A DNA stretch of 64,000 nt from Sabellastarte sp. h YS-2021. Taxonomy: Eukaryota > Annelida > Polychaeta > Sabellida > Sabellidae. Below the pieces are notes generated by a model. It saw only the letters and a list, made by a program, of their open reading frames with translations. It was not told the origin of the DNA and ran no database searches. Position 1 is the first letter of the stretch. Each line of letters opens with the position of its first letter. The DNA is taken from contig OZ024933.1 of the NCBI GenBank assembly GCA_964017235.1, forward strand, positions 95,943,432 through 96,007,431, in the 5' to 3' direction. The translations under genes and the position numbers were made by a program. Shown in pieces: positions 2,739-48,600 of this stretch.

Positions 2739-2740
2739 CA

Positions 2741-12093: not shown

Positions 12094-12445
12094 GTTTACC
12101 GTGTATCTTATGATTCGTCCCCAGAAAGTGTGAGAAAAAAATATAGTGTAGTTTAACATTTACCAAAACTTTTGGATTTCGGCTATTTTTTGTCCTTGAC
12201 CTTCTTAAATCAAAACATACCTGAGATGAACGTCCTTGCCAGAGTTTGTAAAAGTGCTCCCTTTATACTGCGGGGGAGTGTTACGGTGCCAAGGAGTGCT
12301 GCAAGGTGAAATACTTGACTCGTTCCAGCATTTTACTTGGATCTGCAAAGCATGTTAAAGATTTCAAAAGGCTACAGTGTGAGAATGTTGAGCCCCTTGC
12401 GATCAGCCAGTGAAACTCGTCAGTTGACGTGGTTACTTGGACTCT

Positions 12446-15518: not shown

Positions 15519-15655
15519 ATGTATGTCAAATCTTAACAATGATGACGAAAAGGGATCAGGATGGCTTTCACGTCTACTTGTGCGCAAAATAGACACTGGA
15601 AAGGAGTCCCACTCTCGTCTACTGGCAGATAAGGATACAGTATACGAACTGCAGT
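15519..15655 (+). CDS. NIPSNAP: NIPSNAP coding exon A (first one located)
   Basis: The acceptor is a long T-run ending in CAG at 15516-15518. The donor GTTAGT follows 15655. The first base completes a split codon from an upstream exon, and the exon ends with one base of a Phe codon. It encodes the segment after the targeting peptide: [20 protein letters not shown], then [14 protein letters not shown], matching the family's SWF-RSLFVHKVD-K-AHS-LL region. The upstream exon with start codon and transit peptide was not recognised in 1-15518. Confidence 0.9.
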
Positions 15656-18600
15656 GTTAGTTGCATTTAGTTACTTTTTCCCTATCTAGCCTTACAAGAC
15701 ACTGTAATTATTGTGTTCACTTGTGTACTGTTTGACCCATAAATGTGCCAGATTGATTGCAGTGTGTGAAACAATAGTGATACTTTGTTGTTAGAGGCTT
15801 GACCTTTACTTATTGCATCACTTGTAAAGAAATAATTAGAGTCTAAGTGGATACTGAAAATTTATGGAAGCCTCTGTTAAACTCTGTGCAAGTAATAGTT
15901 TCAGTAATGAAAAACAATGTTTGGTCATTGGTACTTATGATTAACATATACTTACCAAAACAAACCCAAAAGAAACTGCATTTTATAATTGTAGGACTTC
16001 AACACTGGTTGTTCAGTGCAACTGCATGTTTCATTGGTTTTTTTTTTTTTTGGCAGCGCCTACTTAATTTTTATTGTTTGTAAATCTTATGTGTCTAGAC
16101 ATGTTGCCATTTTTAAACCCAGGATTAAGATCATTTTAATAGTTATCTACATACACCGGAAAAAGAGTTAGTTTGTCAGTTCAATGTTAACTGATGATTT
16201 GTGTTGATGTCGTTTGCCATTTCGGGTCCTACATTCAAGTTTCACCTGTGGCCTCAGGTGTAACAGTCGGTGGTGGATTTCCAAATCTTAGTGTACATCT
16301 TTCTACCACCCAAACAGCAGCTTCACCTTTACTGCCCATGTAATTGATGTTACACCTAAATCAATTTTCATTGACATAAATGTATTTGTCCCACATTGGT
16401 AAATGAAATATAACGGTCTCATGGTTTGTTCACATATCATATGCATTTTGGTGTTATGAAATGGACAATGGACAAGGCACATCATATACCAGTTTATAAT
16501 TAATCTCCTTCTGTATATTTAGTTCATGCGGTGAAACCAGAAAATATGCAAGAATATCTGGAGCAATAGTGAGTAGATTGTGCATTGTTTGTGATATTTA
16601 CAAACATTCATTAAACTATTGCTTTGTTTGAATTTCATAGAAAATAATCTTACTAAAAATGCCCTTTTCAGTTTGACTTGAATTTAATGCAAAGTTTACT
16701 CCAGCTTTGACCCTTTTATTTTCATCGATGCATAATACTTGTACAAAGGAATAGTAGCAAAAAAATATAAAGTATTATGTTACAAAATTTGTGAAAATAC
16801 TAAAAATGTAAGGCGAAAGCAAGTCCAACTGTAGTAACACCAATGTATAAAAGCTATCAATATAAGTAAAACCCTCAAACTTCTAAAGTTAGGGGAAAAG
16901 CATATACATGTATGCCTGATGAATTGGTTAATGGAATATATTTGATTCAGTCAAGTGTCTGGGGCAGTCTTTTGTACTGATGTGTTCCAGTTTACACTCA
17001 GTTTATCTCTGTGTCTTTGTATTGGATATAACCAAATGAAGTCAGAATTTTTCTTTGCATCGGGGACATGCTTAAAATGTCCATTCTTCAGTAAAAGTTT
17101 GTTCATCATATCAAAGTAAACTTTGCACCGGGGACATGCTTAAAATGTCCTTTTTTCAGTTAAAGTTTGTTCATCATATCAAAGTAAACTTTGATCTGCT
17201 TTTTGATCTATTCTAATCTATCTAATGTGGACTTTGACCGCTTAAGTGCACTACTCGTGTCACTGATTGCTTTGTGGCTCGCACTGGTAGACTGAAACCC
17301 CTTTTGGCCTTGTTTTACTCTCTGTGTCTCTTTTTGAAGAAATGTGTTTCTCTGTTCTTGCTAAGTTGGTTGCAGGTAAGCATTTGCAGAGTACTCTGCA
17401 TGTGTTTTCAGTGAGAGGTATGTGTCTCTGATGACTGAGAAGAACACCGGTGCTGAGCTGGCGGGCAGTTGGACTGTAGAGATTGGAGACCAGGATGAGG
17501 CCAGTAAGTTATTAAAGTACTAGGACAACAGGTCAGGCTTCTGGTGCCAGTATATAAAATATAATAAAAATTTGAGTCAATTGCACATGTTATAACAGCT
17601 GAATTTAAAGTATTTACTTAGATAGACTCTCAATGTATTTCCCACAGCTAATTTGCTCAACCTAATTTTGCACTGAAGCAGCATTGGTTAGTGCTTTGAG
17701 TGTTTTAATCTTCAATATAAAGACTGGAAGTGCACAGACTACACAAAACAATGGAGTGCACATGTTTCTGCGTACATTTATCTGAACCAATAAATGGACG
17801 ATCGGCAGTAATAGAGAACCAAACAATACAGACAAAATATAGTGCGACAAATAGAAGTGTAAAAATCATATTTATAATGCTATTTTTGGATTAATAAAAG
17901 AAACTGGTCTTTATAATACAAATAAAGTCCACGGACTCGTACTTTATGACCTCTATAAAAGGATGGAACTTCCGGCATAATGGACTTGCGTTACCGCACT
18001 CTTCCATTATCCGCTGGAAGTACCATCCTTTTATAGAGGTCAAAAAGTACTCACTCTTGGACTTTATTTCTACAAGAACCAGTTTCTAATGATCTTTGAA
18101 GTTCAGATTTCTTGGAAGTAAGGTAACTCGAGCTGTAAGTTGCAGTGAGATGTAATCACAGCTGCGGCTGGGATTAATATTTTTAGAAAAATTATGATTA
18201 ATGGGGGGGGGGGGGGGGGTTAAGTTTCGCCACTTATATCTTGTCTTTCTCTTCACACCCACAGCCCTGGATTATTGGTGTATACCATGCTTTGACTATA
18301 CCTTTTGTTAATTTAGCACACTGAGTTCCCTGTTGTGGGAAAGATATTGCCCCTACAAAGTTGTACATTAGATGGTATTAGTTTGCCAAAATATATTAAA
18401 ACCACTTGGTAGTTGTGTTCTCCACAAAATATGTCCATACTTGCTACTTTTTATCAGCCAGCAAAATATAAATGTAGAAGAACAGTTGAAACCTATAAAG
18501 TTTAAATTTCAAGTGATCAGGAAATACCACATAACAAGATAAATATTGAGGATCTGATCATTATTTCCTCATAAAAGGAAACTCTGAACTAGGTTGATTT

Positions 18601-21600
18601 TGTGAGAATGTTTCACGAATTGCCTCCGCATTCAGGTTTAATATTTTTATTGTTAATGTAAATTTGTATGTTTGCAGTTCACATCTGGAAGTATGTTGGA
18701 GGTTATCCCGTGTTAAATAATGCAACGAATATCTACAGAACAGACAAAGTAAGGCACTAACTTGTAAAATATCTCAATGTGTAGTACATTTAAATAATCA
18801 ACTCAGCAGTCTGTGTAAATATTCAGATTGTCATATGTTTGAATTTCACTTTCAAACCTCCCTTAAAATGTGAGTAGCTTTGGAATACAACAACCTTTGA
18901 AGATTTGAAATAGCTGTTTGACTGGTACATATAATTGAGTTAACTTTGTATCTATGTATTTTCGCAGGATTTTATCGACTACAGAATAAAGAGAAATAAG
19001 ATGCTTCGATCGAGGAAGAATCAGATCTTGCTGGCCTTTTCTTTCTGGGGCGACATTCAACCTCGTGATGGCAAGTGGATCTACGAACTCAGGAGCTATA
19101 CTCTCAAGGTACTACTTCCTCTACCCATGTATCCATACACCCAATGTACATCACATTGGAACTGCTTTCCTGTATTTCTCTATAATGTAATGCACTCTCA
19201 CATATGTAATATATTTCTCTGGTAACTCAAAGCCTGACTGGCTGAAATACTTCCACAACTAATCACTGGGTTCTCATATCTATGATTGTGGGTTCAAATC
19301 CAGCTGGTAGGGCCGACACCAAAATGTGGAAAGTCAAGTACTTCTCTTTGACAAGTTCTCATTTTGATACTTAAACAACAAGGTATGTTATTCATATTCT
19401 AAAATGGTAGGCTGCGCAGTGAACGTGGACACGTCTTTTGCGCAATGCTTGAACCGCGAATATAGAACGGTAAATAAAGCACGCTGTTGAAATCTCGTAC
19501 ATCGTCCCTTCACGTACAAACGTAAACAAACAACTCGCGGTGAAATAAAACTTAAATTATATGCAGCAAATACTAAGTCAAATAATTCTGTAGGGGATTT
19601 TATCAATATTTCATTTAAAGATCGACTACTCATTAATATGACATTACCGAATTCTGTGGGGGATTTTAACCAAAATACTTTGAGTCTTGTACAAGTTAAT
19701 ACTTCTTTCCTGTAGACTTGTTTATATGGGGAAAGTTGGTTTTAGTGGCTTTTGTTTGTGCCCACATTTTTCTAGTGATGTAAATAAGACTGTTAATAAT
19801 TTGTTTAGTCAGTTTTAGGCTTGTAGTACAAGCAAAGTATGTATTTCTCAATATCTAATTTGTCAAGAAAGAAAATAGTTATATATTTTCATTTAACTCA
19901 TGAGTAGATATAGAAAAGTAAGTTGTGTTTTGTGAAATAGGATTTTTTTCCCTCCAAAAAAGATGATTCTTTGTTTTTCAATAGTTTAACATATTCCCAT
20001 TGTCATACATGTATTTGCAGTACTGGGTAAGAATATAGATATAAAATTAAGTACCTTTAGTTAATTTGTAAACAGTTATTGAAAAATTCTTTCTGTGTTC
20101 AAATTTATGCTTAGATCAAATTTATTAGGGACAGGTTAATTGAGTACCAAAAATGATTTGACTTGTCATGAAAGTGAGCAGAAACTAATTACAAACTGTG
20201 TGCACCGATAATTCTTTAAAATATTGTTATACCCAACATTACCATCGGTCAAACTTGAATTTCCAATCAGATTTGTCTACATAATTAACATTTTCATATA
20301 AGTGTCCTTTTTCATTTCCACAGACAATTGATATTTTATTTGTAATAAATTTGTTTACATTAAATGCCGCATTGGCTTTATTAGTACTGTAGTCAGCCGA
20401 TATTTACATGCCTTGAGTCACATATTTCTAATGTACTCCTGGTGCAGACCTCACTCCACTTTATGTTTCAAATAGACAGCTGTGACAGAATGTTCTATTT
20501 TTTTTTTTTTTTTTTTTTTTGGACAGCTGTTTCAAGTTAAAGCCTGGTTCACTATGAGTGAACCAATTTCACACCCTTTGTATCATGTTTTTGAAAAAAA
20601 AAATACAACACTTGTAGGGTTTTTTCTTACCTTGTGTTGAATCCTGACACATGGTAGGTATATGTGTGTAAATGTTTGATGTATTTAGAGTTCTTATCTT
20701 GGAGGCACACTCACCTCCCGTCTATCAGGCCCTGGGTTTGATACCCAGCCAAACCTAACTCGGAAAAAACTGGTATGTGATGGTTTTCAGTGCAGAATGT
20801 TTCTAATGTAATGATCTCTGATTTCTGGCATTATGCATCTTAAAGTCTGTCAATAGACAGAGATTAAGCATTATAAAAGGACTATTAGAATTAGATTTAG
20901 TTATATGACCCATACAATCTGTTGAAAAGTGATATTCAACCCACATTGATCAATCAGGAATATTTATGTCCACCCCACTGGGGGGTGGACATATTATTTT
21001 TGCTTTTTCCGCCGTCCGGCGTCCCACTTGGTTTCCAGACATTTTAGGCAACAGTTCTTATCCTATCTTTACCAAATTTGGCATGCAGGTTTATTGGGTT
21101 AATAGCTTGTATGGGATTGCTTTTGGTGACGATAGCTCTATAGCTAACTGAGTAATAGCTACTTTGCTACTTTTGAGTAGCTCTTTGGTTTCCAGACATT
21201 TTAAGGAATGCTATTAAGCCTAGATTTCTGAAATTTGGTATGGAGGTTCATTGGGTTAATAGCTTGTATGGGATTGCTTTTGGGGGGAATTGCTTCATAG
21301 ATGAGTGAGTAATTAATTAAATAAATGAGTAAGTGGCTATTTTGAATACTGAAAAAGGCAAATGTGCTCATATCTCCTAAACCGTGCGAGATAGAGCGAT
21401 TTCGTCGAAATTTTCGACCCACAGGGTATCTAAGGAATGTAATCTTTGCAATTTTCAAAAAAATTTCCCCTCCCCAAAAATGGCGGCCATTTTGAATTTT
21501 CGAATTTTTGCCAAAAAGGGCAAAACACAAATTTGCTTCCATCTCCTAAAATTTCCCCTCCCCAAAAATGGCGGCCATTTTGAATTTTCGAATTTTTGGC

Positions 21601-27600: not shown

Positions 27601-30600
27601 AACAAACAGTATGTTGTAAGGAATTTAATGAAAACAATGAAATAATATCAAATTGCTCAGATTTGTTAGGTATAATTTTACTTCAGTTGACAATATTAAT
27701 AACTAATTACAATGTTACACATAATTATTATTAGATAGGTGTGCTGTACTGGCACATTAACAATACTTTATAACGCTATTTTAAACCTATAACGCCTTTA
27801 AAAATCATGTTATTGAACTGTTATTGTGATATTTATGAGTGGAGGCCTGACAGTCTGATCCGATAATTAAGTGTAAACTGATATAACATACCTTGTTGAT
27901 CCTCGCAGAGAATACTGATACAGGTGATATGAAGCAATCTTTATGTTGAAAAAATTTCACAAACTTACAGCACATATGATGTGCTATTGCGCATTAGAGT
28001 GCCCTTAATAAAATGGAGGTTAAAAGCTATAAAGGTCCAGTTAGAATTAGAATTTCACAGAGCTCTAGTTAAAATGACATAACCTGACTATTTGTGGACT
28101 GATTTGAACCTACTTTTTGCACCATTTTGTTCAAAAATTCATTATGCACTGATGCATAAGTGAAAAAATGCAATGATTCATATAACCAACTGACGAATGT
28201 TTAAGCCTTCAGACTGCGGTGTTGTGTTATAATGTCCCATATATGTAATTTGGAGAGAAAATTTGTTGATTCTAATTAGGTAATATCTTAACAAAATGGA
28301 AATTATCAATAAAATATGCACTCATGTCATTTCTTGTAGTCTTTAAAAATTAAAATAATTTTGTGTCACATTTTCAATGACTCTGGTTCATACCTATCTT
28401 GACTAAGCAAGCTATTATTCTTCACCTATATGTCTGTATCTTGCAAGCGTGTGGCTCAAGTAGTTTTTTAAAAAAAAAAATTTTCAAAATGAGAAGAAAC
28501 TGACAAACAATAAGCCTGGTCTCTATGTGAAGAACATAGGGTGTAATCAGGGTGTTCTTCAGTGGGTGTTAATTTCAGACCTGGCTATAGTTTGTTTAAA
28601 GTACAGTACTGAATGTCGATTTGTCAAAGTTGGAGTTTAACATCCTGTCCAACAGCAAGGGTCATATTGGGACAGGGTCCTTAGCCTGCTAACCCACTTG
28701 GCTACTGTGGACCTCGAGTGTCTACAGGTAATTTCTTACAATTATATTGGGTTAATTTCTAAATTCTAACCTAGCTGTACTTTGTAAATGTATGGTACTT
28801 AGTCTCTAATTGCAATGTCTTACAATTTTATGCTGTTAATTTAAAACCTTGCTGTATTTTGTAAATACACATTACTGTGTAGTGTCTTTTAGTAATGTCT
28901 TACAATTGTATTGTTTTTCAGCCAGGTACTATGATAGAATGGGGCAATAACTGGTGAGTCGTTTTGATTAGTTTTATTTGCTTTCTGTAATTCTCAGAAA
29001 TCAGTATTCTTTATGTCCTCTCTGGAATAAATATTAATAGGATATTTTGATATGATTTCTCAAAGACAGTTTGATTTCTCAAAGACAAGTTTACTTTTTA
29101 TGAAAAATATTTATTGATATTGAATGAAGGACATGAAGTAGTCAAAATAAGATGATAATTAATTTATTTTATGTGTCTAAATAAAGTCAGTTGACAAATG
29201 AAAAGTTGTATATTTAAAGTACTTGTGGTTTTTCTATGCAGCTCTATTTAATTTTTATCACTGTAAATCATCATTTACCAAAACAGCCAATATTGTTTAA
29301 AAATAAATACCATTGATTTATCCCACTTCTGTCATGCTAACAGACACACAAATTTCAGGCCAAGCATATCTGTTTAATTGGTTTCCTCCTTAATATCTTT
29401 GGAGGTCAATGTTGTGAGATTCAGCTGTGCAGTTGTTATATGTGTCAGTGTATTGAGCATCACTAAGCGACCTTATGTTGTTCTTATGTTTCTTCACCTG
29501 GGAGTCTGGCAGTGCAAAGGTTATGTGCTCTATAGGTATGATTTGATTACATTGTGAAAATAAAGTAACCTTCACCTAACCTGCTACTGGATATTCCCCA
29601 TTTTCCCCATTGTGGCCCAAAGTCCAGCAATCAATGGTAAGGTGTACTTTGCAAGTGCTGTGCCTTTTGGCTGCCGTCTAACTCCTTTGTGTTATTTATT
29701 TTCATGGCTTATATGTATAATATCATTAAGCCTCTCTAGTAGTAATTTCACCACTGGTTAAATTTGTCTGCATATATCTGTCATTATCTTAACGTTATTG
29801 TTATACCTTTAGCACCCCCCCCCCCCCCCCCAAAAAAAAAAAAAAAAAAAGAGTGACTCTGTGTAGAGTTAGCAATGATATAAGCAGGAACTGGACATGT
29901 ATGTTGTGTACCTTGGTTAAATAAGTGACACTGATACTGTCATTTGGCCTCTTCAGTTTTCAACAACATAAGCGGAAAACCTAATAATCAGCCATAATGC
30001 TTTATCCCTGCCTCTGCAGTAATTTCCAGACCTTGAGTCTTTTTGGGATCAGATTCCCTACACAGCAGTAGACTATACAACAGATGTTCTTGACTCTAGC
30101 ACTGTTATACTATGTATATTTTCTCCCACAGCTTTTCCACCAGGGTAGTAGAAATAAACCTTTTTTGTTTTCTCTTGCTGTATGCTTATAAATATACATA
30201 AAGAATAAAAAATTATGATACACCAAAAAAAAAAAAAAAAAAAACCACCACCACAGAAACTTGTCACAGTTAATAGTGGTAAATGTGTCCGCAATGATTT
30301 TTCTCAGAAAAGTATCCTGGATTAAAATTCTTTATGTTTTATCAGTGAAATAAAGTAAAACCAAGCCAAGAAGCAGCATTATTCTGTTCATCTCGCAATT
30401 GTTATCTTTTCAGTACCTACTTGCTAGGGCTGTGATTAGATAATCAGGTATCCAAAAAAGATGGATGGAGTTTATTGAAAAACTGTGTAGAAGCTAATAA
30501 ATTGGGTACTCTTAAAACTATTGTTAATACTCTTATTCTCAACCCTGTTTTTTTAATTGTTCTGAATTGCCAAAAGAAACACAAAAATTAAAAAAAAAAT

Positions 30601-33600
30601 GACCATACAGTAAACACCTGCATTGACATAACTTAAACACTATATATATGGGTAATCTACTTATAATCCTTCCTCCTGCCCTCCTTAGACACATGTTTAG
30701 TGGTATTGCACAATTCAAACTATACAGCAAGAAAATAATGATATTGCTTGCAACTATATACATCATGTTAATGTAGCTTAAGTGCTATTCATTTCCCATC
30801 TCCAAACTCATGATTTTCACCAGAGTGCACAGCTTTAAGCAAAAGAAAAGAGATTTATTATACATCAGTGTGTTTTTCAAATGTAGCTTAATCGCTGTGC
30901 TTTAGCAAATTTTTCAGACAGGACAAGGGTCAAGCTGCTCACACAGAATAATAAAGACATGGTTCACTACAATAAACACTTTCTCTGAATGTGACTAGAA
31001 TGATTGTAAAGTAAGAAATGTGAAAATCACCACAGTATGTGACTGAAATTGCTAGTGAGGATACCAACCTTCTATTTTCTTGGCTTGTGGGGAAATTTTT
31101 CAAACATTTGTGACTTTTGTGACAACATTAGACCCCTGCAGCCATATTCACTAAAGATCTTTGCCAAGTCTTTGGCATAACTTTTCTATACATATATAGC
31201 CGACTCAAGCCAAACACTGGGCTAAGAGCCCAAGACCTCTTCTGAATATGGCCCCTGATCTCTTACATGGCAAAATTGGTAGGAATTTTTATTGTTTTGT
31301 TTTGCTTTTAAATGGGCACCTCTGCGACAAATGCCATGAATTTCACATTTATTGCTCTAAACTTTTAAATCTTTTTGCAGCAGGGTGCTTGTCCTCAGGC
31401 TGTTCAAGGATAAATATTCTGAATATTATGTGTGTGTGTGTGTGAATTTGGCTTTACCTTTCCCCCCTGTAAAACTTCGCGTTTTTCTGACAGGGCTCGG
31501 GGTATCAAGTTACGCAAGGAGGAAGGAGAAGCAGTGGCAGGCTACTTCTCCAATATCGGGGATGGAAATGTAGCCCACCATATCTGGGGTGAGTCTCCCC
31601 TAGCAACGGGAGAGAGAATTTCAGATGACGGGAATGAAAAATGATTCTTTTAATTGCCTAAAACTGCAGAATTCACCTGTTGCAAGTGCTATATTATTGG
31701 GTAAAAAGTTAAAATTTGACATGCAGGGTCAATATACGTGATGTTTTCAGGCTAACATTTAGGCTTATAGGCTGGTGCTTGTTGATTAAGGTGAAGAGAT
31801 TTAGAAACATAGGATAATGGATAAGTGTTCAGTTTAGAATTATACAGTTTACAGTTACAGGTTATGGGTTAAGGTTTAATGTTATAAGGTAGTGGCTATG
31901 GGTGAAGATTCTAGGGTTATTTGTAGTGAATTTTATATTTATTTACAAACACAATTGTGAGCAGTGATATCTCATGTTTTCAAATAAAATCTGCAAGTTT
32001 CTTGCAACAAGTGAGATCTGCAGATATTCTAATTTTTGGCTTTGCTAAAGTGTGTAATCACGTATTGTGGTGTCTGTGTCACAGGGTTGCAGTTCAGTGC
32101 TAGAATACTTTGAAATACTTTGGTACAGGTTTTCCCCTGCATGAATGTCAGGTGTGAGGTTGATTTTGATGTAGTATAATATAGACAATGTTTATCAGAG
32201 CCAAATTGTACTTTCTGAACCCCTTTTAAGCTTGTATATAGTTTATATGTTACTCCCACTTTTCTTATGATTTGGGAATTTTCCAGGAAAGTGATTATTT
32301 GGAGAAATTGATAATTCCACATATATAGGTTCAATCATAGCAATCTCTTTTATCTGGTCATGTTGGATAACAGAAAGCTTGTTAAAATAGAAGAGACATT
32401 TCCATATAACACAACAGGGAAATATTATTTTTTTTGTCAGATCATAAAGATTCTATCATATGCACTATTGAATCACTACCAGCACGGAAATTAACCATTC
32501 CAGAAATGTAATTAAATTCATTGCCCTCGGTTGTTTGGACAGAGTATTGTTTTCAAACCGATATAGATGTTTACTATTTGAATGTGGATCTGGCATCAAC
32601 TTAGAAATATTTAATTAATTGTAATGACAGTGTTACCAATAAACTGGGCATTCAATTAAAGAATGGGTGAATCTTCAAACTGTGAAATTATGTAATTTTT
32701 ACAGGAAGTATTTGTGCACTGTATTTACAGCCCTTTTATGTTGTTTTTCTACTAATATAAGGAATCACCTGACCTCTTTTTCTCAGCAAACAAATTGTAT
32801 TTTTCTGTCTTTCTTGTGCATATATCCTTGAATTCATTTTGAGAAGAAAAATCAAGTATTTCTAACCTGTATTTCCTGTTGTGAAGCTTTGGTTATCACA
32901 TACTGGAGGTAAATTAACAAAATGCAGAAATTACATCAAATTTAGTGGTGATAATTTTTTCATGCTCGTCATTTTTGTAATAAAAAATTATTGAAGGAAA
33001 TATTGGCATTACAGATAGCTTTGCAATGGTTGTTTTTGATTATTTTGGTAACCTTGTTTGGGTTTGTATATAAGATGAGAAAGAGGTTTAGGAACTCTGA
33101 AAAGCAATTTCACAGGTTCAATTTTTTTAGAAAGAAAAAGAAATGAAAGTGTTACAATATTTGTATGTACACTTATAAGATTAATTAAATTTAAATCATT
33201 TTAAATATCATATTAAAACTCTTTCAGTGATTCTACATGACTTAAAAATGCAAAATTGTTGTCTATGTCAAAGTCAATTTATTGTAAGCATATTGCCTCT
33301 TGTTCATTTGCAACATGCAGAGAAAAAAAATTGAATCCTTTTTATTGTGATAGAAATTTTAAAAAAAACCAGCAGAATTTTAAATTCTTGAAACACTACA
33401 AAAGATTGATATATGTATTGTTAGTATTTGAAATTCTGTCAGATTTTAGTTTCTGTCAAGATTCAGTATAGATTCTGTGTATCCATATTCTCAATTGTAC
33501 CAAGTTTTGAATTAAGTTTTACACATCCTAAACACCATAAGCTGCTTAGTGCTTGTTTTTGTTGATTTTGTTCGGAAGACATGTTGACGTATTGTTCAAG

Positions 33601-36600
33601 GTAGTTTGTAGTTAATGCTATGAGTTGACATTCTGGCTTGGTACTTTTGAGGTGTGCTTGTCTTGTACATGTATATTGTTCCTGTTTTCTATCATAGCCA
33701 ACATTCTCAAAGCACCTCAAATGAAGGCAAAAGATTGATATTACTTAACAATGGCAAGTTTTCAAATTGTACCAGTTGTATTCAACGTCAAAGTATTATC
33801 TGAGTATGAATGACATAATTATAGATTTACAACTTCACCACAAGCCAAAATGATGCCAACCATCAAGTTAACCATTCTACAGTTGGGACAAAAACACAGT
33901 TGATGATAAATATTAAATGGGTGATTGATGATTAACAAATTTTAAATTAACGCTAGCAGTTGAAGTTCGACGATAAAATAAACAAGGATTGTGTTTTATT
34001 GGTAAGTTAGTATCCTGCGAGATTATGCCTTCCAAATTTTTAAAATGATTCGTGATCTTATGCGATTATGTCTTTGTTGATACTCAAAGAAAAATTATTA
34101 TAAATGACCTTTGTCAGGTCTGATCTTAACTTCCTAAAACAACAGAACTATTATTCTGTAACTAGTATTTCCATACAAAGTTAAAGAATTTGCATTTAAT
34201 TTGAAGGGAAGTCTATTTTACAGCATTCTAAATGAGTGGGAATTACATGCTGTGTAAAATACACTTAAGTACCTGGATGAAAGTTTAAAGCCATAAATGC
34301 CTCAAAGATTGTTTGTGCCAAGAATGAATAGTTCCTTGAATTAAAAATGCCAGGCATAATAAATAAATAATTTGAAAATTTTAGCACTTTTAAAGGGGTT
34401 ATTTCAATGTTTCCCAGATTGGTTGCCATGGTTTCATCTACACAGCTTTCAGTGTGAACGTCTGTCCCATTTCTATCTAAGTTGGGGCTGTAAAATCAAG
34501 CATCTATCGTACTCATTATTGGTCCTTTAGGTTAGAAATGTAAAAGAATCTATAGGAAACCATTGGTCGTTTCTTTCATGTCAACTGAATATTTCAAAGG
34601 ATAAAGGTGCTTATTATTGGTCCCAGAGGTTTGCCATGTGAAAGTGTGCATCTTTTTCAATGCACAGCTTCAGCAGAAATGCATAATGTAGGAAATCATC
34701 CACTGCTACCTTGGGTGAAATATAGGGTTCTTTTTCTTTCCAGTGGACACAAAATGCATCATTTGCCTGATGACCTCTTTCTAGTTATTGTGTATTATTG
34801 TATATTTTGTAATTTTGCTGCATTATCCTCTTTAAGAGCTGGGGCAATGAGGATCCACCAGTTACTGTCATTTCACCTTTGTGGCTTCCAGTTGGTTTCA
34901 TTGTAAGCACGGTATATGTAAAATTCACTTGTTGCACACCTTGTTAGCAAGGCCATATACTATCTATTGGTTATTGAATTTACCTTTTTGCTTCATGCTG
35001 ATTGCTGAATTTAAGGGCCAAAGCGATGAGAATCCGCCTGCAGGAAACCGCCCCGGTGGCTGGCTATTTCTCTAACATTGGAGAGCTGTATAATGCTCAT
35101 CACCTGTGGGGTAGGTCCAGACAAAGGTGACTGAAAGCTTAGCCACATATCCACTCAAATTTACTGCCATGTGAAATACTAGGGCATAGTCGGTGCAAAA
35201 CCATGGCTGTACTATAGATATGTCATCATTTTCACCAGAATCTGCCATGGCAGTTAGGACAAGTGGTAATTTTTGTACCCAGGTAATCTTTTTGGCCATT
35301 TTTGTGCTCTCTCAATAAGGAATAATTTCAGACATGAAACAATGTAAAAAATAATGAGCTACTGCTTTAAAAACTTTGGTTGACTTGTTTTTAGAGCAAT
35401 CTTGAGTATAGTTTTTATGTAAGAAACTGCTACTATTTATCCAGAAAAGAATACTCTTTCCTTTTTACTCTTTTCTTTGTAATAATGATTCTGTTATTTA
35501 ATGAATATAACGTTCTTCCAATTACACAAGGGAAACAATTATGTTTATTGCATCAGCCACAGCTATTACTTCCAACTTTGATCTGGATTCTGTGTCCATT
35601 TGAAAATTGTTTTACTCAGTTGAATGACCATTACTGGTGCAGGATGGCTGCATTTGTTCAATTTTAATAGGTTCAATGAACCATCAAATTTGCTTGATTT
35701 TCAACATTATTATCGGACATGTTACCTTCAGCAATAAATTTCCTTACAAGTGGTAAAATTTTCAGATATGTGGCTAATCTTGGATTGTTCTCTTTGGACA
35801 AAAAACCTTGCCTTTTCTCCTTTAAGCCAGTTACATCCATTTGCTTTATGAAAGTAAGGAGTTTTCACATATGTGGCTTATCTGACACTTGTTATCTTTT
35901 GACCTCTGGCTTTGACCTCTGGCTTATATATCAGTTGTTGTACCTCTTTGCTTTGTGAAGTCTGTGTCTGCAGGATATTTGAGCATGGCCTCTAGTTTTG
36001 TTTTCCATGCCTGTGTAATCAGGAGTTTACACAAAGAACAACACTGTTTCAGTTCTGTATGCTTTTTGTTCTACCCCTTTGTAAGCTTGTGTCACGTCTC
36101 CCCCTTTTGTCTTCAGCTTTGTATTGTTTTGGAACTGTGGCCATGTAGTCAACAAATATATCCAGTGGCTGTATGATTTAATGATTAAGCTAATGATTAC
36201 CTCTTAAGATTTTTAAGACTCTGCTAGATGGAGGTCTCATTAGCTGGGTGGTAAATTTGATGGGCAAAATTCCTGATGGGCATTGTTCTGATGGACATAG
36301 TACATTATGGGCATTCTTCCTAATGGATATTCTTCATGGATTCGTAAATTTGGCATATGTTCACTTGACTCTTACTTTAATGGTCATGGGTTCAAATCCA
36401 ACATACAATTCACAAAGGACTTTTCCCGATATGATCTTAACTACTGAAGGGAATGCTAAGTTTAAAATAAAAGTTTTAAAAAAAATCATTTCAGTTGGCC
36501 CTTGACTGTTTTTTCATTGCTATTTCATTTCCTTCAGTTTTTTGTATGTGTCACAATATCCAAATATTGTTCATAATGATGTCACATTAGAAAATATTTA

Positions 36601-39600
36601 AGTTTTGAAACATTGAGTAGATAAGAATGTTCTTATTCCTATTAAGATATACACGCATATTCAGTTGTTACTTGAAACATTTTATCCCAGCTATTGCATT
36701 TTGACTAAGTATACACTTTAATCATCAAAAATAGTATGTGAAAATGACCTTTCCGTTTATATCATAATTACGTCATAATTTTCAAAAACTCCAGTCACTA
36801 TGAGTAAACCTAAGTCCAGGACCCTCTAAATTCATAGCCGTGATGAGGTGCACCATAACCCGAGACCAATATGATTACACCTGGTACACTTGCACAGTAT
36901 GCAGCAGTCTGTTCATTCAATACATCTGTGTAAATTCAAGGTTATCTTTTCCCAAAACAAATACAAAAATCTGTGCAAAACCCTTGCATATAAGCACACA
37001 AATAAATTATTGAATTTATTGCATAAAACAGACTCGTATATATATAAATTGATAAAGCAGTGTTTGTTAATACCAGTGTTTTGTTGACATTTCATATTGT
37101 ATATACTGGATATTTACCGTATTCACTATTCAAAGGTGGTGCTGGCATTGTGAGCTATGTTAGTATTTAGGACTTTTGGTTTAACATGATAGACACATTG
37201 GTTACACAAAATTGATAAGTCAGTAGCTTTCACACTCGCAAAATCCTCATATTGATATTGTCAAAATACAGTCGCTAATGTTTGGGTTGCTCCACCAGGA
37301 AGCTTATCCACTTTAAGCTTATCCACTTTAAAACTGCAAATTTTGATGGACCAGTGAGAAATCTGTAAAAATGCAGTAAAATATCAGTACGTACATTTTG
37401 GTCCAATTAGTAGGACTATTTGATTTTGAATTCCCTTTAAATAGAAGTAAATGGCTCGCTTTATCAAAAATACTGTTTTTATACTGATTGTTTAATATAT
37501 TTCATCTGGGTCTGCAGAAAAATTTTTTTTCTGGTCCCAAACTATTCAACCAAAAGGAGTTCCACCATTAGTAGTTATATTACCTAGTATCCTTTGCTAT
37601 CTTGTCCATGTAAAAAGTGGACTTTGTTCAGGGGAGATGATGTTGGCTGTTGTCCTGCTGTTTGCATGTGTGTGCTGACAAGTTAATCATTCTTGTTAGT
37701 TTTTACTTAAGTGTGAGTAATGTTGCTTGGCTATAATAAAACTCATTAAGTACGTGTTAATTCAGCAGTTGTTGATTCACTGTTGGTTATGTCTTTAGTT
37801 GGAGTAAGCAGTATGAAATGGTGCCACAACCACCCCAAATTAAGAAAAACAGAAAAAAATCAGTGAAATTGGGAATCTAACCATGGATTTAATATAGCGT
37901 ACCAAATTTTTTAGGGTTTATATAGCCTTGCTAAATGCTTGGTTATCTTTGTAATTACAGGAAAATAGACAGAAAAAAACTTTTAAATTTGCATAATGTA
38001 CTCTTATACATGTCCTGGCTTTTACTCAACCATACAACTAAGACAGTTCTGTGTACATATGATTTCATTGTCTCTTGTTTCTGTCTCTTGTTTCTGTCTC
38101 CTAACATGTCTGGGTGCTTTTTGAATACCAAATATCTGTGTACATGTTAGACAACATATGGTCCAAATTTGAGCCTCAAGGCAATGCTAGGGCTTATAAG
38201 TTATAAACTGCATATCTGGTAAATCTCACACTTCTTACTCTATGTATAGAATTGTGTACTGCTTACCATTCATTTTCAGCCTTGTAGTCAACACATGTTT
38301 ATTTTGATTCCCTTCATCTGGTTTTTCTGTAGTTCATTATTCCTGTTGTTACACACCCATTGAGTGCCAACTGTTTGCATTGTCATTGCTGCGTTTCTTG
38401 TTTGCACACTTACTAGTTCCAAGAGCTCCAAGCACAGGATTATCCAGTGGGAGTCAGCTGGGGATGCTTCCTTGTGTGTTGCATTATTTGTTGCACTTAT
38501 TTTTGTTATTTACCCACTAACCAGGGCTAAGGGCATCACTCACCGGATGGCCAGTCAGGAACCAGTGGCCGGTTTCTTCAGCCAGATAGGAGAGGTGAAC
38601 CAGACACATCACTTTTGGGGTACTGTGAGCTAGGAAACGAAATCAGTGTTTGCTTTTACCTTGAGTAATAAATCATAACATTCCCAGCCTAGTGTAGTAT
38701 GTATTTTGGAAAATTTATGCCTCAATAAATGACATTAGATCTGTGTAAGAAAATTTAACTAAACTGGCTTCCTACAAGCAGGAAAATTTGTTAATGACAC
38801 AAAACATGGGTGTCAAATACACTTGTATGTTTGTTGGGACAAAAATACATACAACCACCATAAAGAAGAAAAAACCCTCAATATTTTTAAAATCTGCTCG
38901 ATTGCATGTAGCAATACCTCAATATATTAGTCAATATAGCCCCTAACTTGTGGCTTCGTGAAACTGACCATCAGTGGGATGTTTTGTTATTGCAATAACT
39001 CAGAAGCTGAGAAGAACTTAAACCTTTTAATTTAGTTGTCGATATTTTTGAAAATTATTTATGCCTAGTTAAGTTTAATTCTTTAATAGTATAATTGATC
39101 CTGTCTGTGGAAATGCATGTCTTTTACCCAGTAACCCTCAACAGTTTTGCACACACTTCTCTTGCAGTACTAGGGGAGTGTTCAGGCTTTTTAGGTTTGT
39201 AAATATGTGAACAATCAACAATGGTGTTCACACTTTCAGAGTGGTGAGTTGGAGTCATCAACTGGAGTTGGTTGCTAAAATTCTTTTTGATTTCAGATGT
39301 TTATTTTGCTTTGAATATTATTAAAATCCCTTTAAAAATTTTTAAAGTTGATGTTAGAATGCTTCTATATAGTTATATATAAAGTAGTTAGTCTTGTATA
39401 TTTCACTGCTTCATTAAGTGTCCCGCGAGGGATGCTTGTTTGTATATGGGAGAAGCGACTCCACCAGATCCGCATTTTCTTTTCGCAATAGCTTCGCATC
39501 CATAAAGCGGATTCTCTTCATATTTGGTAGGTGTATGCAGTAGCCCTAGCAAAAATTTCTAAATATGGTGTCATGACATTTCAACCAATCAGAGAAGTCA

Positions 39601-42600
39601 CATGACCAAAAACATGTTTTTCAACAGGGCGTGCTTGTCCGGATGATAACTTAAAAAGCGTTCAGCTATTCACATGAAAGTTGGCAAGTAGGTTCGTTAT
39701 ATAGATGTCTGGAAATCATTAACTTTTGGAAGTGATCCAATACAAAATGGCCGATTATTAATGATTAACTGAATGTCACAATTTTCTTAACACTGAAAAC
39801 GCACTTATCTCGGAAACGGAGCGAGATAGAGCAATTTCGACGAAATTTTTGACCCACAGGGTATTTGCAGAGTCTACTGGTGACTTTTTGCAAAAATCGT
39901 TTTCCCACCACTTTTGGCGGCCATCTTGAATTTCTGCGTAAAATGCCAAAACATGTTTACCTCTAAAACGGAGCAAGATAGAGCGATTTCGACAAAAGTT
40001 TTTGACCCGCAATGTATCTGCAGAGTCTACTGGTGACTTTTCGCAAAAATCATTTTCCTGCTACTTTTGGCGGCCATCTTGAATTTCTGCATAAAACGCA
40101 AAAAAAAAATAAACAAACCAGATTCATCTATGAAACCTTGCATTTTGTCATAAATGGAAAAAAACATATTAAACACAGGAAGATGGTCATTTCTACAAAC
40201 TCATTAATACTCATTGGGACACTTTGTTTTTGTTGTGCAAAAACAATTTCTTTTTCTGTTGCGAAGCAATACTCTAGTTAAAGTATTAAATAGCAGCTGT
40301 TTGGCTTGTTCTATATGATTGTTTTGTTTATTTAATCCATTGTGAAAACAGAAGCCATAACAAAAGCAGTAGTATCTAGAAGTAAAAGGAATTATTTGCA
40401 TTATCATAACAACAATACAGACATTAAATGTGACCATTTTGTAATAAATGACTAATCCTTCTTTATCTCAATGCAAGAAAATTTACTAGAAATAAAGTCA
40501 TCAAGAGAGCTAGATTATCAAACATTTCCGTTTTTTTGTTTTAATGGCAAGTCAGGCTTAGCGAAGTACCTCTAAAATATGGAGTCCAATGGACTACATG
40601 TCCTCCGAAAAATGGAGTCCCAATAATTTTTTCCTGAGTCCAGTGTTTGCGTTAGTGTTATGAAATGTCGGGTACCTTATGGCTCATCAAAAAGGGGTAC
40701 CACTGTATGAAAATTGAGTGCAAGTAATAATTTTTCTCCTGTAATTTGGGTACGTTTAAATATATAGAAGCACCATCCAATTTCCTTTATATTGATAAAT
40801 AATATGCATCTGTACATAAATAAATGTTAAAAATATTTTAAAAAGCTGAACCCCAGTCAACAAACTTCATTTTAGTCTAATTAGATTGAAATTTATTTTG
40901 TATGATTATTTTATTTAAGCTACAAATATGGCATTGATACTGTTTGAAAGATGAAAATTTGTAGTTTTCCTTGCTTTTTGTCTGACAAAAATTCATTGGG
41001 TAGTCCCAGAGATATAGTTTTTTTGTTCCATCCCCTGTAAATATTTTCGAATTTTACAGCTTTTATTTTCCGGGCAACTTTCCGGGGTTAAATAACAGGA
41101 GTTTCCGAGATTTGTTAGAATAGTTTGTCTTCCACGAAATTCACCGTTCTGGCTTGTCGTTTCGACTGTTTCCGTGCAGAGATCAGGCTTTCTTTCGATA
41201 TATAACGTTTTGAGTAGATATGCTAGTGTACGAAATATCTTGCTTTACAATTGTGGACGTAAACAACTTGCCAGGAAATCGCTCGAAACCATTTAATTTT
41301 AAAATATAAAGCTTATTTTCAGTGTTATATATATTGCTTGCATATCTACGCTTCCTGCCACCGAAAATTTGCTTCTAAAGCAGAAATATTTCCTTCATAA
41401 AAATCGCGTCCCGATGGACGCACTGACAACCGAAATTTGTGTCCAAATCTGAAATACCGCGTATTTAATATACTCTAACGGTGTAATCGCGAACCCTGCA
41501 AGTTTTAATATTAATTTCTTGTCTGTAACTAAAAGTAAAATTTATGTGGTTATGTGATTGCTCATAACTGTTTCATGTTTCTCCTGTAGCTGTACCCAGT
41601 ACAATTTGTAATTCTCTTTCATTGGTGTATATTTATGTCCACCCCCCTGGGGGGGTGGATATATTATTTTTGCTTTTTCCGCCGTCCGATGTCCGTTGTC
41701 CGGCGTCCGGCGTCCGATGTCCGGCGTCACGCATGGTTTCTACTCATTTAAAGGAAAAGTATTAGAGCTATTGTCACCAAATTTGGTATGCAGGCTTATT
41801 GGGTCAGTAGCTTGCTTGGGATTGCTTTTGGCTGTTGTACCTCTTTTGCTTACAGAGTAATACTTAAGTACAGCTATTTTCAGTACCCATTGGTTTCCGT
41901 GCATTTAAGCCAAAATAATTAAAGATATTTTACTACAATTTTGAATACAAGATTGTTATGTCCATAGCTCGCTTGGTATTGAGTACATGAGTAATAGCCA
42001 TTTAGGTACTTCATTGTGTATTTTCAGTACTACTTTTGAGTAATTTGCTAATATCTCAGAAACCGTAAGAGATAGAGCGATTTCGACAGAATTTTTGACC
42101 CACAGGGTACCTAAGGAATGCAATCTATGCAATTTTCCAAAAATTTTCCCCTCCCCAAAAATGGCGGCCATTTTGAATTTTTGCCAAAAATGGCAAAACA
42201 CAAATTTCCTTCTATCTCCTTAACTGTGTGAGATAGAGCGATTTCGTCGAAATTTTCAACCCACAGGGTATCTAAGGAGTGTACTCTTTGCAATTTTCAA
42301 AAAATGTTCCCCTCCCCAAAAATGGCGGCCATTTTGAATTTTCGAATTTTTGCCAAAAATGGCAAAACAAAAATTTGCTTCTATCTCCTTAACCGTGCGA
42401 GATAGAGCGATTTCGTCGAAATTTTCAACCCACAGGGTATCTAAGGAGTCTACTCTTTGCAATTTTCAAAAAATTTTCCCCTCCCCAAAAATGGCGGCCA
42501 TTTTGAATTTCGAATTTTTGCCAAAAATGGCAAAACACTAATTTGCTTCTATCTCCTTAACCGTGCGAGATAGAGTGATTTCGTCGAAATTTTCGACCCA

Positions 42601-45600
42601 CAGGGTATCTAAGGAATGCAATCTTTGCAATTTTCCAAAAATTTTCCCCTCCCCAAAAATGGCGGCCATTTTGAATTTTCGAAGTTTTGCCAAAAATGGC
42701 AAAACACAAATTTGCTTCTATCTCCTTAACCGTGCGAGATAGAGCGATTTCGTCGAAATTTTCGACCCACAGGGTATCTAAGGAATGCAATCTGCAATTT
42801 TCCAAAAATTTTCCCCTCCCCAAAAATGGCGGCCATTTTGAATTTTCGAATTTTTGCCAAAAATGGCAAAACACTAATTTGCTTCTATCTCCTTAACCGT
42901 GCCAGATAGAGCGATTTCGTCAAAATTTTCAACCCACAGGGTATCTGAGCATTGTACTCTTGGTAATTTTTAAAAAATTTTCCCCTCCCCAAAAATGGCG
43001 GCCATTTTGAATTTTTGCCATTTCAAATTTGCTTCTATCTCCTTAACCGTGCGAGATAGAGCGATTTCATCGAAATTTTCGACCCACAGAGTATCTAAGG
43101 AGTCTACTCTTTGCAATTTTCAAAAAATTTTCCCCTCCCCAAAAATGGCGGCCATTTTGAATTTCGAATTTTTGCCAAAAATGGCAAAACACTAATTTGC
43201 TTCTATCTCCTTAACCGTGCGAGATAGAGTGATTTCGTCGAAATTTTCGACCCACAGGGTATCTAAGGAATGCAATCTTTGCAATTTTCAAAAAATTTTC
43301 CCCTCCCCAAAAATGGCGGCCATTTTGAATTTTCGAATTTTTGCCAAAAATGGCAAAACACAAATTTGCTTCTATCTCCTTAACCGTGCGAGATAGAGCG
43401 ATTTCGTCGAAATTTTCGACCCACAGGGTATCTAAGGAATGCAATCTTCGCAATTTTCAAAAAATTTTCCCCTCCCCAAAAATGGCGGCCATTTTGAATT
43501 TTCGAATTTTTGCCAAAAATGGCAAAACACTAATTTGCTTCTATCTCCTTAACCGTGCGAGATAGAGCGATTTCGTCGAAATTTTCGACCCACAGGGTAT
43601 CTAAGGAATGCAATCTTTGCAATTTTCAAAAAATTTTCCCCTCCCCAAAAATGGCGGCCATTTTGAATTTTCAAATTTTTGCCAAAAATGGCAAAACACA
43701 AATTTCCTTCTATCTCCTTAACCATGCGAGATAGAGCGATTTCGTCAAAATTTTCGACCCACAGGTATTTGAGCATTGTATTCTTGGCAATTTAAAAAAA
43801 AATTTCCCCTCCCCTAAAATGGCGGCCATTTTGAATTTTCAAATTTTTGCCAAAAATGGCAAAACACAAATTTGCTTCTATCTCCTTAACCATGCGAGAT
43901 AGAGCGATTTCGTCGAAATTTTCAACCCACAGGGTATCTAAGGAATGTAATCTTTGCAATTTTCAAAAAATTTTCCCCTCCCCAAAAATGGCGGCCATTT
44001 TGAATTTTCGAATTTTTGCCAAAAATGGCAAAACACAAAGTTGCTTCTATCTCCTTAACCATGCGAGATAGAGTGATTTCGTCGAAATTTTTGACCCACA
44101 GGGTATGTAAGGAATGTAATCTTTGCAATTTTCAAAAAATTTTCCCCTCCCCAAAAATGGCAGCCATTTTGAATTTTCCAATTTTTGCCCAAAATGGAAA
44201 AACACAAATTGGCCTTAGCCGTGCAAAATAGAGTTATTTCGTTGAAATTTTCGACCCATAGGGTATCTGAGAAATGTACTGTTAGCAATTTTCAAAAAAA
44301 TTTCCTTTTCCCAAAAATGGCGGCCATTTTGAATTTTCAAATTTTTGCCAAAAATAGAAAAACAGGAATTTGCTTCTATCTTCTTAACCGTGCAAGATAG
44401 AGTGATTTCGTCAAAATTTTCAACCCAACCAATGCAAAAAGGCATGAAGCTGAAATAATTTACATCTACACTAACAAATATTTAAGCATCATTGATATAT
44501 TTTACAAATGAAACAGGGTCTTGTAAGACTACTGTACAATTTGGGCAAAAGGTTCATGGGTGGACATTACACATGATAATGTGTGTTCTTCTATGCTATC
44601 CTGTTTCTATTCGCATCTACTATCAACAGGGCGGCCTATTTCTAGTTTCTCTTGCTCTTAATGTGCTTAAAGTGTCATGAAGTCTGTCAAATATTAATCA
44701 TATATTTTCTGAAGTATTTTTTCCCTTTGTGTCCAGTAAAAAAGAGCAAATTTTAATCATGTTTCTCCTCTCTTACTTGATGTTTTGGCCACTGTTTCAG
44801 CATATGAGAGTTTACAGAGCAGGAAGGAGGTGCGTGAAGCTGCATGGAGGCGACCAGGCTGGGATGAGTGTGTGGCTTACACAGGTACATGCCTTGGCAT
44901 TTGCTAGCATACAGATTATCTGCTACCTGTAGAAGTTATTTAGAAGAAGTCAATTTTCTAACAGGTGCCTGTGGCAATATATTCTCCTCCCACCTCAGCT
45001 GTTTTGGGTAAAAATTTTGATGTGGCAGTAGCATGGAATGTTGGCAGTTCCAAGTGGATAATGAATGAATGCCTGGCTTCCTTTTCGTATTATACCCCAT
45101 AAATTCAAATTCTCACAAAAGTCAAGACTTAAAAAAGTGGTGTATAAAAAATAGAATCCATTGACGAGTTGAAGCCGTATGGTTAAGGCTTTGTAGGGAA
45201 AGACTGACTTGAATCCAACAAACCATATTGTAGGTGTATACAACTGAAACTACTGGTGAAGCCACTATGACAGTTGATTTAAATAACTTCATCTAAAATA
45301 ATTTTTGAAATAGCTGTGAATATAAGTTGGCTTAAGATTTATTAGGTGGACAAATTGTTTCTCCGCAAAAGTAGACCATATAAAGCTCAGTTATGATCAG
45401 GAAAAGTCAAGTTTTACATTTGACATTGATAATGAAATTTCAGGTCAGTATCAACAATAATATACAGAAGATAATATGTTGAGGTAACATCACCAGGTGG
45501 AAACAACCAACACATAATTTTGAATATTTGCCCTTTTTTCCTCAACTTCCTCAAATATACTTTAATATTTCAACTGCACAGTGTGTTAAAATGTTATTAT

Positions 45601-48600
45601 TATTAAGCGTCCCTTGTGGGACGCTTGTTTGTGTATGGGAGACCTTCAGGCTCCGCCGGCTGCGGTGGCTCCGCCGGCTCCACATTTTGTTTTCCTTATA
45701 ACTCTGTAACCGTTAAGCGGATTCTTTTCAAATTTGGCAGGTTTAGGCAGTAGCCTTGGGGAATTTTTTTGAATATGCTGCAGTGACATTTCAACCAATC
45801 AGAGAGGTCACATGACCCAAAATATCTTTTCGATGGGGAAGCTTGTCCGGATGATAACTTGAAAGGAATTTTATCAATTCATCTGAAACTTGGCAAATAC
45901 ATTCATTCTATTAAAATCTGTAAATCATTAAATTTTGGCATTGATTGGTTAAGAAATGGCCGAGTAATTAATGATTAATTAATCATTATGAATTTTCCAA
46001 ATAAGGAAAGCACAAAAATTCTTATATCTCGAAAACTGTGCTAGATCGAGCGATTTTGACGAAATTTTTGACGCACAGGGTATCTCTGCAGAGTAGCCAT
46101 ACCAATTTTCAAAAAAAATGTTGTCTCACAAAAAATGGCGGCCATTTTGAATTTTCGAATTTTTCGCAAACATTGCGAAACATAAAAATGCTTATATCTC
46201 GAAAACCGTGCTAGATAGAGCGATTTCGACGAAATTTTTGACCCACAGGGTATCTCTGCAGAGTAGCCATGCCAATTTTCAAAAAAAATTTGTCTCGCCA
46301 AAAATGGCGGCCATTTTGAATTTTCAAATTTTTCGCAAAAATTGCAAAACATTAAAATGCTGATATCTCGAAAACCCTGCTAGATAGAGCGATTTCGACG
46401 AAATTTTTTGACCCACAGGGTATCTCTGCAGAGTAGCCATGCCAATTTTCAAAAAAAAAATTTCTCGCACAAAATGGCGGCCATTTTGAATTTTCGAATT
46501 TTTCGTAAAATTGCAAAACATAAAAATGCTTATATCTCAAAAACCGTGCTAGATAGAGCGATTTCAACGAAACTTTTGACCCACAGGGTATCTCTGCAGA
46601 GTAGCCATGCCAATTTTCAAAAAAATTTTGTCTTGCCAAAAATGGCGGCCATTTTGAATTTTCGAAGTTTTGCGCAAAAATTGCAAAACACAAAAATGCT
46701 AATATCTGGAAAACTGTGCTACATAGAGCGATTTCAATGAAATATTTGATCCTCAGGGTATCTCTGCAGAGCAGCTATCCCAAAGAGCTTTCACTCGGTG
46801 AAGTTTCAGATCCGTAGCTAATTATTCACCTACTCAAAATGAGTAAATGCTAATTATCTCTAAAACTATTGTGGATACCCAATTTTTCTCAAATAACTCA
46901 TTCATCTACTTTTGGGAGAGCTTTCACATGGTGAAGTTTCAGACCCGTAGATAATTACTCACCTACTGCAAATGAGTAAATGTGAATTATCTCTTAAAAG
47001 TATTGCAGATAGCCAATTTTTCTCAAATAACTCATTCATCTACTTTTGGAAGAGCTTTCACATGGTAAAGTTTCAGACCCATAGCTAATTACTCACCTAC
47101 TCAAAATGAGTAAATGCGAATTACCTCTAAAAGTATTGCAGATAGCCAATTTTTCTCAAATAACTCATTCACCTACTTTTGGGAGAGCTTTTACTCTGTG
47201 AAGTTTCAGACCCATAGCTAATTACTCACCTACTCAAAATGAGTAAATGCGAATTACCTCTAAAAGTATTGCAGATAGCCAATTTTTCTCAAATAACTCA
47301 TTCACCTACTTTTGGGAGAGCTTTTACTCTGTGAAGTTTCAGACCCATAGCTAATTACTCACCTACTCAAAATGAGTAAATGCGAATTATCTCTAAAAGT
47401 ATTGCAGATAGCCAATTTTTCTCAAATAACTCATTCACCTACTTTTGGGAGAGCTTTCACATGGTGAAGTTTCAGACCCATAGCTAATTATTCACCTACT
47501 CAAAATGAGTAAATGCTAATTATCTGTAAAAGTATTGCGGATACCCAATTTTTATCAAATACTCATTCATCTACTTGTGGGAGAGCTTTCACATGGTGAA
47601 GTTTCAGACCCATAGCTAATTACTCACCTACTCAAAATGAGTAAATGTAAATTATCTCTTAATAGTTTTGCAGATAGCCAATTTTTCTCAAATAACTCAT
47701 TCACCTACTTTTGGAAGAGCTTTCACACACGAAAATGAAAAATTGTGAATATCTCGGAAAAGCTATTTCTTCTCCTTTAATGCTCGGCGGGAGACATTTT
47801 GAATTTTCGAATTTTTTGCAAAACACAAAAATGCTTATATCTTGAAAACTGTGCTAGATAGAGCAGACTGCGCTGACTTGACTGGTTGCCACAACAGTAT
47901 AAGGCTAGAAACGAAGCATTTTCTTAATACTTTAGCACTCACCTTTATATCCTTTTCGGGACGCTTTGTTTTTGCCACATTATCTTTTTTTTCCGAGCGA
48001 TCCTCTAGTTATTTATTTTTTTTTTTTTGGTCTTTTTCAAAGAAGTCTAACATATAACTAAAACGGTAACCGAATAGTTTCAAGGAGGTTTTTCATATTT
48101 GATTATACTCAATAATTGTGGGAATTTTCTTTTTTTTTTTCTGCAAACTCATCTTGATGAAGCTGGTCTTATGACTGCCTTCCAATCAGCTTATAGAAAA
48201 CACCACTCTACTGAAAGCGCCCTCCTTAATATACAAAATGATATTCTTCTTAACATGGCCAAGGGTTCTGTCACTGCCCTTACCCTTCTGGATCTGTCCG
48301 CCGCTTTCGATACCATTGACCACACCATTCTCCTGGACAGACTCAATGTTTATTATGGAATCAGTGAGCTAGCACTTGGCTGGTTCAAATCATACCTGTC
48401 CGGAAGGACACACTCGGTCAAGGTAGGTAGTACTCTCTCGCATCCTGCTGCGCTCCACTATGGAGTACCCCAGGGCTCTGTCCTTGGACCAATCCTGTTC
48501 TCTCTCTACACTAACACAATCGGCTCAATCATTCATTCCCGCAGTAGCATCAACTACCACTTTTACGCCGATGATACCCAGTTATACATAACACTTTCAC

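Follow-up and report, generated by a model that had tools for sequence, protein, structure and literature searches.

Mutually exclusive exons in mitochondrial genes have been reported for coq-2 and mrp-1 (PMC7434440) and for OGDH (PMC7969005). In coq-2, the tandem homologous exons 6a and 6e shift the frame and encode one core segment of a mitochondrial-pathway protein, with a known function in quinone choice and confirmation from RNA in other species (PMC7434440). Exons 4a and 4b of OGDH, a mitochondrial metabolic protein, are ancient duplicates of which one or the other is used, the choice being made via distant branch points in an intron of 118-131 nt in birds and mammals (PMC7969005). Clusters with more than two homologous exons, governed by docking and selector elements in the introns, are known as the Dscam type (PMC6071210). 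Here we analyze a 64,000-nucleotide stretch from the annelid Sabellastarte sp. h YS-2021 (contig OZ024933.1, positions 95,943,432 to 96,007,431 of the forward strand; hereafter the window), in which a gene of the NIPSNAP family carries three homologous exons, G1, G2 and G3. These very probably form an ancient three-member cluster of mutually exclusive exons that gives rise to three NIPSNAP isoforms.

The locus resembles each of these systems in part. Like coq-2, it offers tandem, frame-shifting exons for one core segment of a protein with a mitochondrial role, but the gene is a different one, there are three exons rather than two, and they are recognized by their sequence (PMC7434440). Like the OGDH pair, they appear to be ancient duplicates in a mitochondrial protein, whereas the introns that separate them measure about 3.4 kb (PMC7969005). 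With the Dscam-type clusters they share the number of homologous exons, greater than two, and candidate complementary elements in the introns, although at NIPSNAP these elements are without statistical support and the docking candidate lies within the cluster (PMC6071210). NIPSNAP proteins reside in the mitochondrial matrix and have been reported to act as mitophagy signals; vertebrate NIPSNAP1 and NIPSNAP2 belong to the same Pfam family, which the protein studied here matches in two stretches, and the portion of that report consulted mentions no triplicated exon (PMC12842286).

Three homologous exons in a single NIPSNAP gene

The window contains a complete NIPSNAP gene, its coding exons spanning 12226-49755 as delimited by splice sites and similarity to human NIPSNAP1; the human NIPSNAP sequences used in this and all other comparisons are hand-typed, provisional versions. 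Exons G1 (31494-31588), G2 (35016-35110) and G3 (38525-38619), all on the forward strand, are each 95 nt long and encode 31 amino acids, are preceded by AG and followed by GT, share the same phase and align without gaps, which confirms the description given in an earlier, sequence-only reading of this DNA. Pairwise identities amount to 55, 54 and 53 of 95 nucleotides and to 16/31, 16/31 and 15/31 amino acids. All three exons can be read through in frame +1, and G1 in frame 0 as well; the other frames contain stops. Similar length, homology, splice sites and frame are the sequence criteria by which neighboring mutually exclusive exons have been recognized (PMC3923563), and the G exons agree with one another in all four.

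The reading frame itself imposes the choice of a single exon. Exon F (28922-28953, forward strand) measures 32 nt; its end (AACTG) is in phase 2 and supplies two bases of a Trp codon, the third base of which opens every G exon. Every G exon in turn contributes a single base to the codon that follows and joins exon H in frame. The resulting G1, G2 and G3 isoforms each comprise 843 nt and 280 amino acids without an internal stop, and they score 155, 150.1 and 157.5 bits, respectively, against the Pfam family NIPSNAP (PF07978; gathering cut-off 22.3 bits), with two matching stretches per isoform. No NCBIfam family matched the G2 isoform, the only one submitted. As a length of 95 is 2 mod 3, inclusion of exactly one G exon is the sole combination that yields a productive transcript, irrespective of how the splicing machinery behaves. 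In a transcript lacking all G exons, a premature stop precedes the last exon junction by 77 nt, and joining G1 to G2 places the stop 165 nt ahead of that junction, joining either of them to G3 114 nt, and joining all three 260 nt. Nonsense-mediated decay usually follows a 50-55 nt rule, and because the stops at 77-260 nt exceed this distance, transcripts with zero, two or three G exons would be decay targets. Exons of a length not divisible by three are common in this setting, being present in 377 (60%) of human clusters of mutually exclusive exons (PMC5740500). At the RNA level, such clusters are recognized by junction reads that lead from every exon across its neighbors, while reads joining two exons of the cluster are lacking unless they shift the frame (PMC5740500); any joining among the G exons would be frame-shifting.

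The gene appears to be present once, as far as searches of the genome (1.79 Gb, 647 contigs) reach. A 74-amino-acid piece of human NIPSNAP1 returned four matches at E<=10, with five candidates scored, and these were H, G1, G2 and G3; the similarity among the G exons is thus not due to chance. The control exon E2 found one real place in the protein search, the second, at E 7.5, being noise, and a 414-nt spliced query of E2-F-G2-H-I returned in the DNA search nothing other than its own five exons at this locus, with the controls E2, F, H and I at a single place each. These searches, of which the DNA query held G2 as its only G exon, revealed no fourth copy, paralog, retrocopy or haplotig. Collections of viral and prokaryotic contigs yielded 1 and 27 stretches that matched a pattern, respectively, none of which encodes a relative.

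With regard to age, silent sites between the copies are saturated, such that dS could not be computed, while dN ranges from 0.39 to 0.51 (NG86). Each copy is identical to the human NIPSNAP1 segment, which we take to exist as one sequence, at 16-18 of 31 positions, about as many as it shares with the other copies. No convincing homology of the flanking introns emerged among the 12 best matches listed for each pair (best E per pair 0.044, 0.015 and 0.15). Because silent sites are saturated, the introns have no visible homology and the copies stand about as far from each other as from the human segment, the triplication is probably old, or else was followed by rapid change.

To assess coding constraint, neutral decay was simulated 20,000 times per copy from a majority-rule ancestor, with assumed base weights and uncorrected distances. 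With about 20 nucleotide changes per branch, G1, G2 and G3 show 7, 8 and 8 amino-acid changes, compared with 13.1, 13.2 and 14.3 expected neutrally, and the fraction of simulations with so few changes and no stop was 0.00015, 0.00135 and 0.00015, respectively. Sites invariant across the three copies are likewise distributed unevenly over the codon positions (17, 18 and 4 of 31; Fisher P 5e-5). The constraint on which the sequence-only reading had made its proposal depend is thereby upheld in all three copies, neutral decay being rejected for each separately, and since protein change is far below neutral drift, each copy has presumably been used as protein.

Taken with the frame logic and the finding of a single gene, this separate constraint is why we favor mutually exclusive use. 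Several observations weigh against it. The neutral test depends on the reconstructed ancestor, base weights and distances named above and on copies of only 31 codons; changes unique to G3 are without an excess at third positions (4, 5 and 5 by codon position); and the G3 donor is weak, pairing with U1 at -5.3 kcal/mol vs -9.9 for G1 and -9.5 for G2. Of the five constitutive donors for which pairing was computed, three are no stronger than that of G3 (D -5.1, E -5.0 and B -2.0, beside F -8.7 and H -7.1 kcal/mol). The donor and the pattern of G3-unique changes would also suit a scenario in which just one G exon works, its two counterparts being fossils or decaying copies that are never spliced into protein. 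We consider this improbable, given that amino-acid changes fall far under the neutral expectation in every copy, that frame, length, phase, AG and GT are all kept and the copies score 150-157 bits in their NIPSNAP context, and that this intactness has persisted though introns and silent sites have lost recognizable similarity. Alternatively, the additional exons could act as poison or buffering exons, deliberate double inclusion or skipping tuning the level of NIPSNAP while one version serves as the main protein. All combinations other than exactly one G exon do introduce a stop that precedes the last junction by 77-260 nt, yet a poison exon needs no conserved protein sequence and three copies are constrained, so that we regard this as very unlikely; a poison role and a protein-isoform role can coexist.

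Mutually exclusive use, as proposed in the sequence-only reading, thus stands as the best-supported interpretation of the locus at the level of its DNA. Under it, one G exon per transcript would be picked by regulated choice, wrong splice products would be cleared by nonsense-mediated decay, and the outcome would be three matrix proteins of 280 amino acids, distinguished from one another by their second NIPSNAP domain.

Candidate features for exon choice

The acceptors of the G exons are distinguished by long stretches free of AG (31409-31491, 34952-35013 and 38458-38522), these zones measuring 85, 64 and 67 nt before G1, G2 and G3 as opposed to 20-54 nt at the gene's eight remaining acceptors. 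Long AG-free zones often go with distant branch points and alternative exons. The contrast corresponds to 1 of 165 permutations, a figure to be read in light of the feature having been chosen after the exons were known and being one of several examined.

A more specific scenario, which we regard as doubtful, is that the choice is made by competing RNA pairing of the Dscam type, a docking site at 32001-32026 pairing with one selector at a time, located after G1, before G2 or before G3. The unproven candidate docking site (forward strand, in the G1-G2 intron) is complementary to two equally unproven selector candidates, one at 31664-31686, 75 nt after G1, which holds AATTCACCTGTTGCA, and one at 34913-34936, about 80 nt before G2, which holds AATTCACTTGTTGCA; a weak third candidate at 38477-38495 consists of two TGTTGCA words before G3 (all on the forward strand). 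One arm is common to the two inverted repeats, which measure 23 nt (87%) and 24 nt (79%), and the word AATTCACYTGTTGCA is rare, with 13 copies in the genome, two of them at the NIPSNAP locus. By summed pairing energy the docking stretch ranks first among 3638 intron windows, ahead of other high-scoring ones located in the left (30918) and right (39158) introns. Three 7-mers are common to all three flanks against a shuffle mean of 0.27, a number reached in 4 of 300 shuffles, and a common 8-mer occurs in 10 of 300.

However, a stronger best sum was seen in two of nine shuffled flank sets, and when windows are ordered instead by their weakest pairing with the three flanks, the site drops to third place (-20.9), all nine shuffled sets holding a better window. 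The best shared stretch was equaled in 28 of 300 shuffles, the words were tested after being seen, and the three 7-mers include an overlapping pair. The position of the candidate inside the cluster also departs from the two described variants, in which docking sites lie in the left or right intron (PMC6071210). Given that shuffles reach it, we do not put this pairing forward as an established mechanism and retain it as a lead. A transposon origin of the shared intron words was considered as well and is unlikely with 13 exact copies in the genome. Enforcement of the choice by steric interference or by incompatibility of U2 and U12 splice sites, both of them known mechanisms for mutually exclusive exons (PMC5740500), seems scarcely credible here, where about 3.4 kb of intron separates one G exon from the next and the donors (GTGAGT in G1, GTAGGT in G2 and GTACTG in G3) are ordinary GT sites by eye.

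The remaining exons and their surroundings

The other exons of the gene likewise lie on the forward strand. Exon A (12226-12305) provides the start codon and an arginine-rich N-terminus, MNVLARVCKSAPFILRGSVTVPRSAAR, which is presumed to be a mitochondrial presequence; it was placed by frame and splice site only, without homology. Similarity to human NIPSNAP1 together with splice sites defines exons B (15519-15655) and E (18678-18748), and exon C (16523-16568) with weaker similarity, while exon D (17412-17503) was identified by frame, splice sites and weak similarity. The constitutive exon E2 (18968-19108) is similar to human NIPSNAP1 and has a single real match in the genome. Downstream of the cluster, exon H (44801-44884, 28 amino acids) and exon I (49691-49755), which carries the stop codon, are both recognized by their similarity to human NIPSNAP1.

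The window also contains repetitive sequence. The intron between G3 and H holds a satellite array at 42042-44427 (169-bp unit, 14.4 copies), and repeats that look related are found near 21-27 kb and 46 kb of the window. Fragments of a BEL/Pao-type retroelement occupy 761-3424, where Pfam recognizes RVT_1, Peptidase_A17 and Integrase_H2C2 in adjacent interrupted frames. Reverse-transcriptase-like fragments, of the non-LTR type by eye, occur at 48078-49437 and 10752-11811, with RVT_1 confirmed by Pfam for 48078-49115 only, directly upstream of exon I.

The mitochondrial contig of the same genome (15,345 bases) has its protein genes distributed over both strands, and their order is strongly rearranged. 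The cox1 gene lies on one strand together with putative cox2 and cox3 genes, and putative nad5, nad4, atp6, cob, nad1 and nad2 genes lie on the other. ARAGORN, run with the bacterial code, found no tRNA on this contig.

The variable segment and its possible significance

Alignment to bacterial NIPSNAP-domain proteins places the G segment at about residues 23-53 of the second NIPSNAP domain, which spans some 100 residues. Among bacterial members with solved structures, six distinct sequences matched, with five alignments shown (5kak, 5k9f, 1vqs, 1vqy and 2ap6), and two Paraburkholderia sequences were aligned in addition. In comparison with these, the segment keeps the motifs G-Y/F-F, IG and H-x-W, and its variation falls ahead of these motifs and in the turn that links IG to HH. 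We take the fold of the domain to be a dimeric alpha+beta-barrel, and on this fold the segment would comprise the end of helix 1, strand 2, a turn and strand 3. The assignment to the second domain in the sequence-only reading stands, and its "helix-strand unit" is probably better described as strands 2 and 3 preceded by the last part of helix 1. The core of G-Y/F-F-S, IG and H-H-x-W is probably retained in all three isoforms, which would keep this core while swapping an outer face and a turn, and it is likely that the half-helix and turn that vary serve as contact surfaces for partners or in the dimer. That such partners are specific to tissues or stresses, as the sequence-only reading suggested, is conjecture.

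The same animal offers a standard of comparison for mutually exclusive exons of great age. Two tandem coq-2 exons lie 31 kb apart in this genome (G000:C1:112669125-112700413), an a-form exon of 134 nt (LTFNWG...IYAHQ) and an e-form exon of 131 nt (LTLNWG...IYSHQ); both lengths are 2 mod 3, and 25 of 44 alignment columns are identical. The changes from Phe to Leu and from Ala to Ser are the signature of the e-form of coq-2 associated with rhodoquinone, and the a/e pair has been reported in those helminths, molluscs and annelids that make rhodoquinone and, in the part of that study drawn on, in no other species (PMC7434440). The exons found here fit this Phe/Leu and Ala/Ser signature of rhodoquinone-making animals and agree with a source among the molluscs or annelids. 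One could speculate that the NIPSNAP triplet is one output of an ancient low-oxygen program of mitochondrial splicing in rhodoquinone makers, switched in parallel with coq-2 and altering partners or mitophagy receptors under anoxia. We consider this unlikely; if it were true, molluscs and annelids in general should have kept the triplet.

Literature searches, which covered titles and abstract openings of the papers listed, found no description of the NIPSNAP exon cluster, in agreement with the sequence-only reading, whose author knew of none. We accordingly rate the cluster itself as apparently new and clusters of mutually exclusive exons as a known kind.

If our interpretation of the G exons as a mutually exclusive cluster is correct, NIPSNAP would be a further mitochondrial gene with such exons beside coq-2, mrp-1 and OGDH, in this case as an ancient cluster of three. 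Three selected versions of one 31-amino-acid segment would mark where variation in NIPSNAP matters, and they may provide ready-made swaps for experiments.

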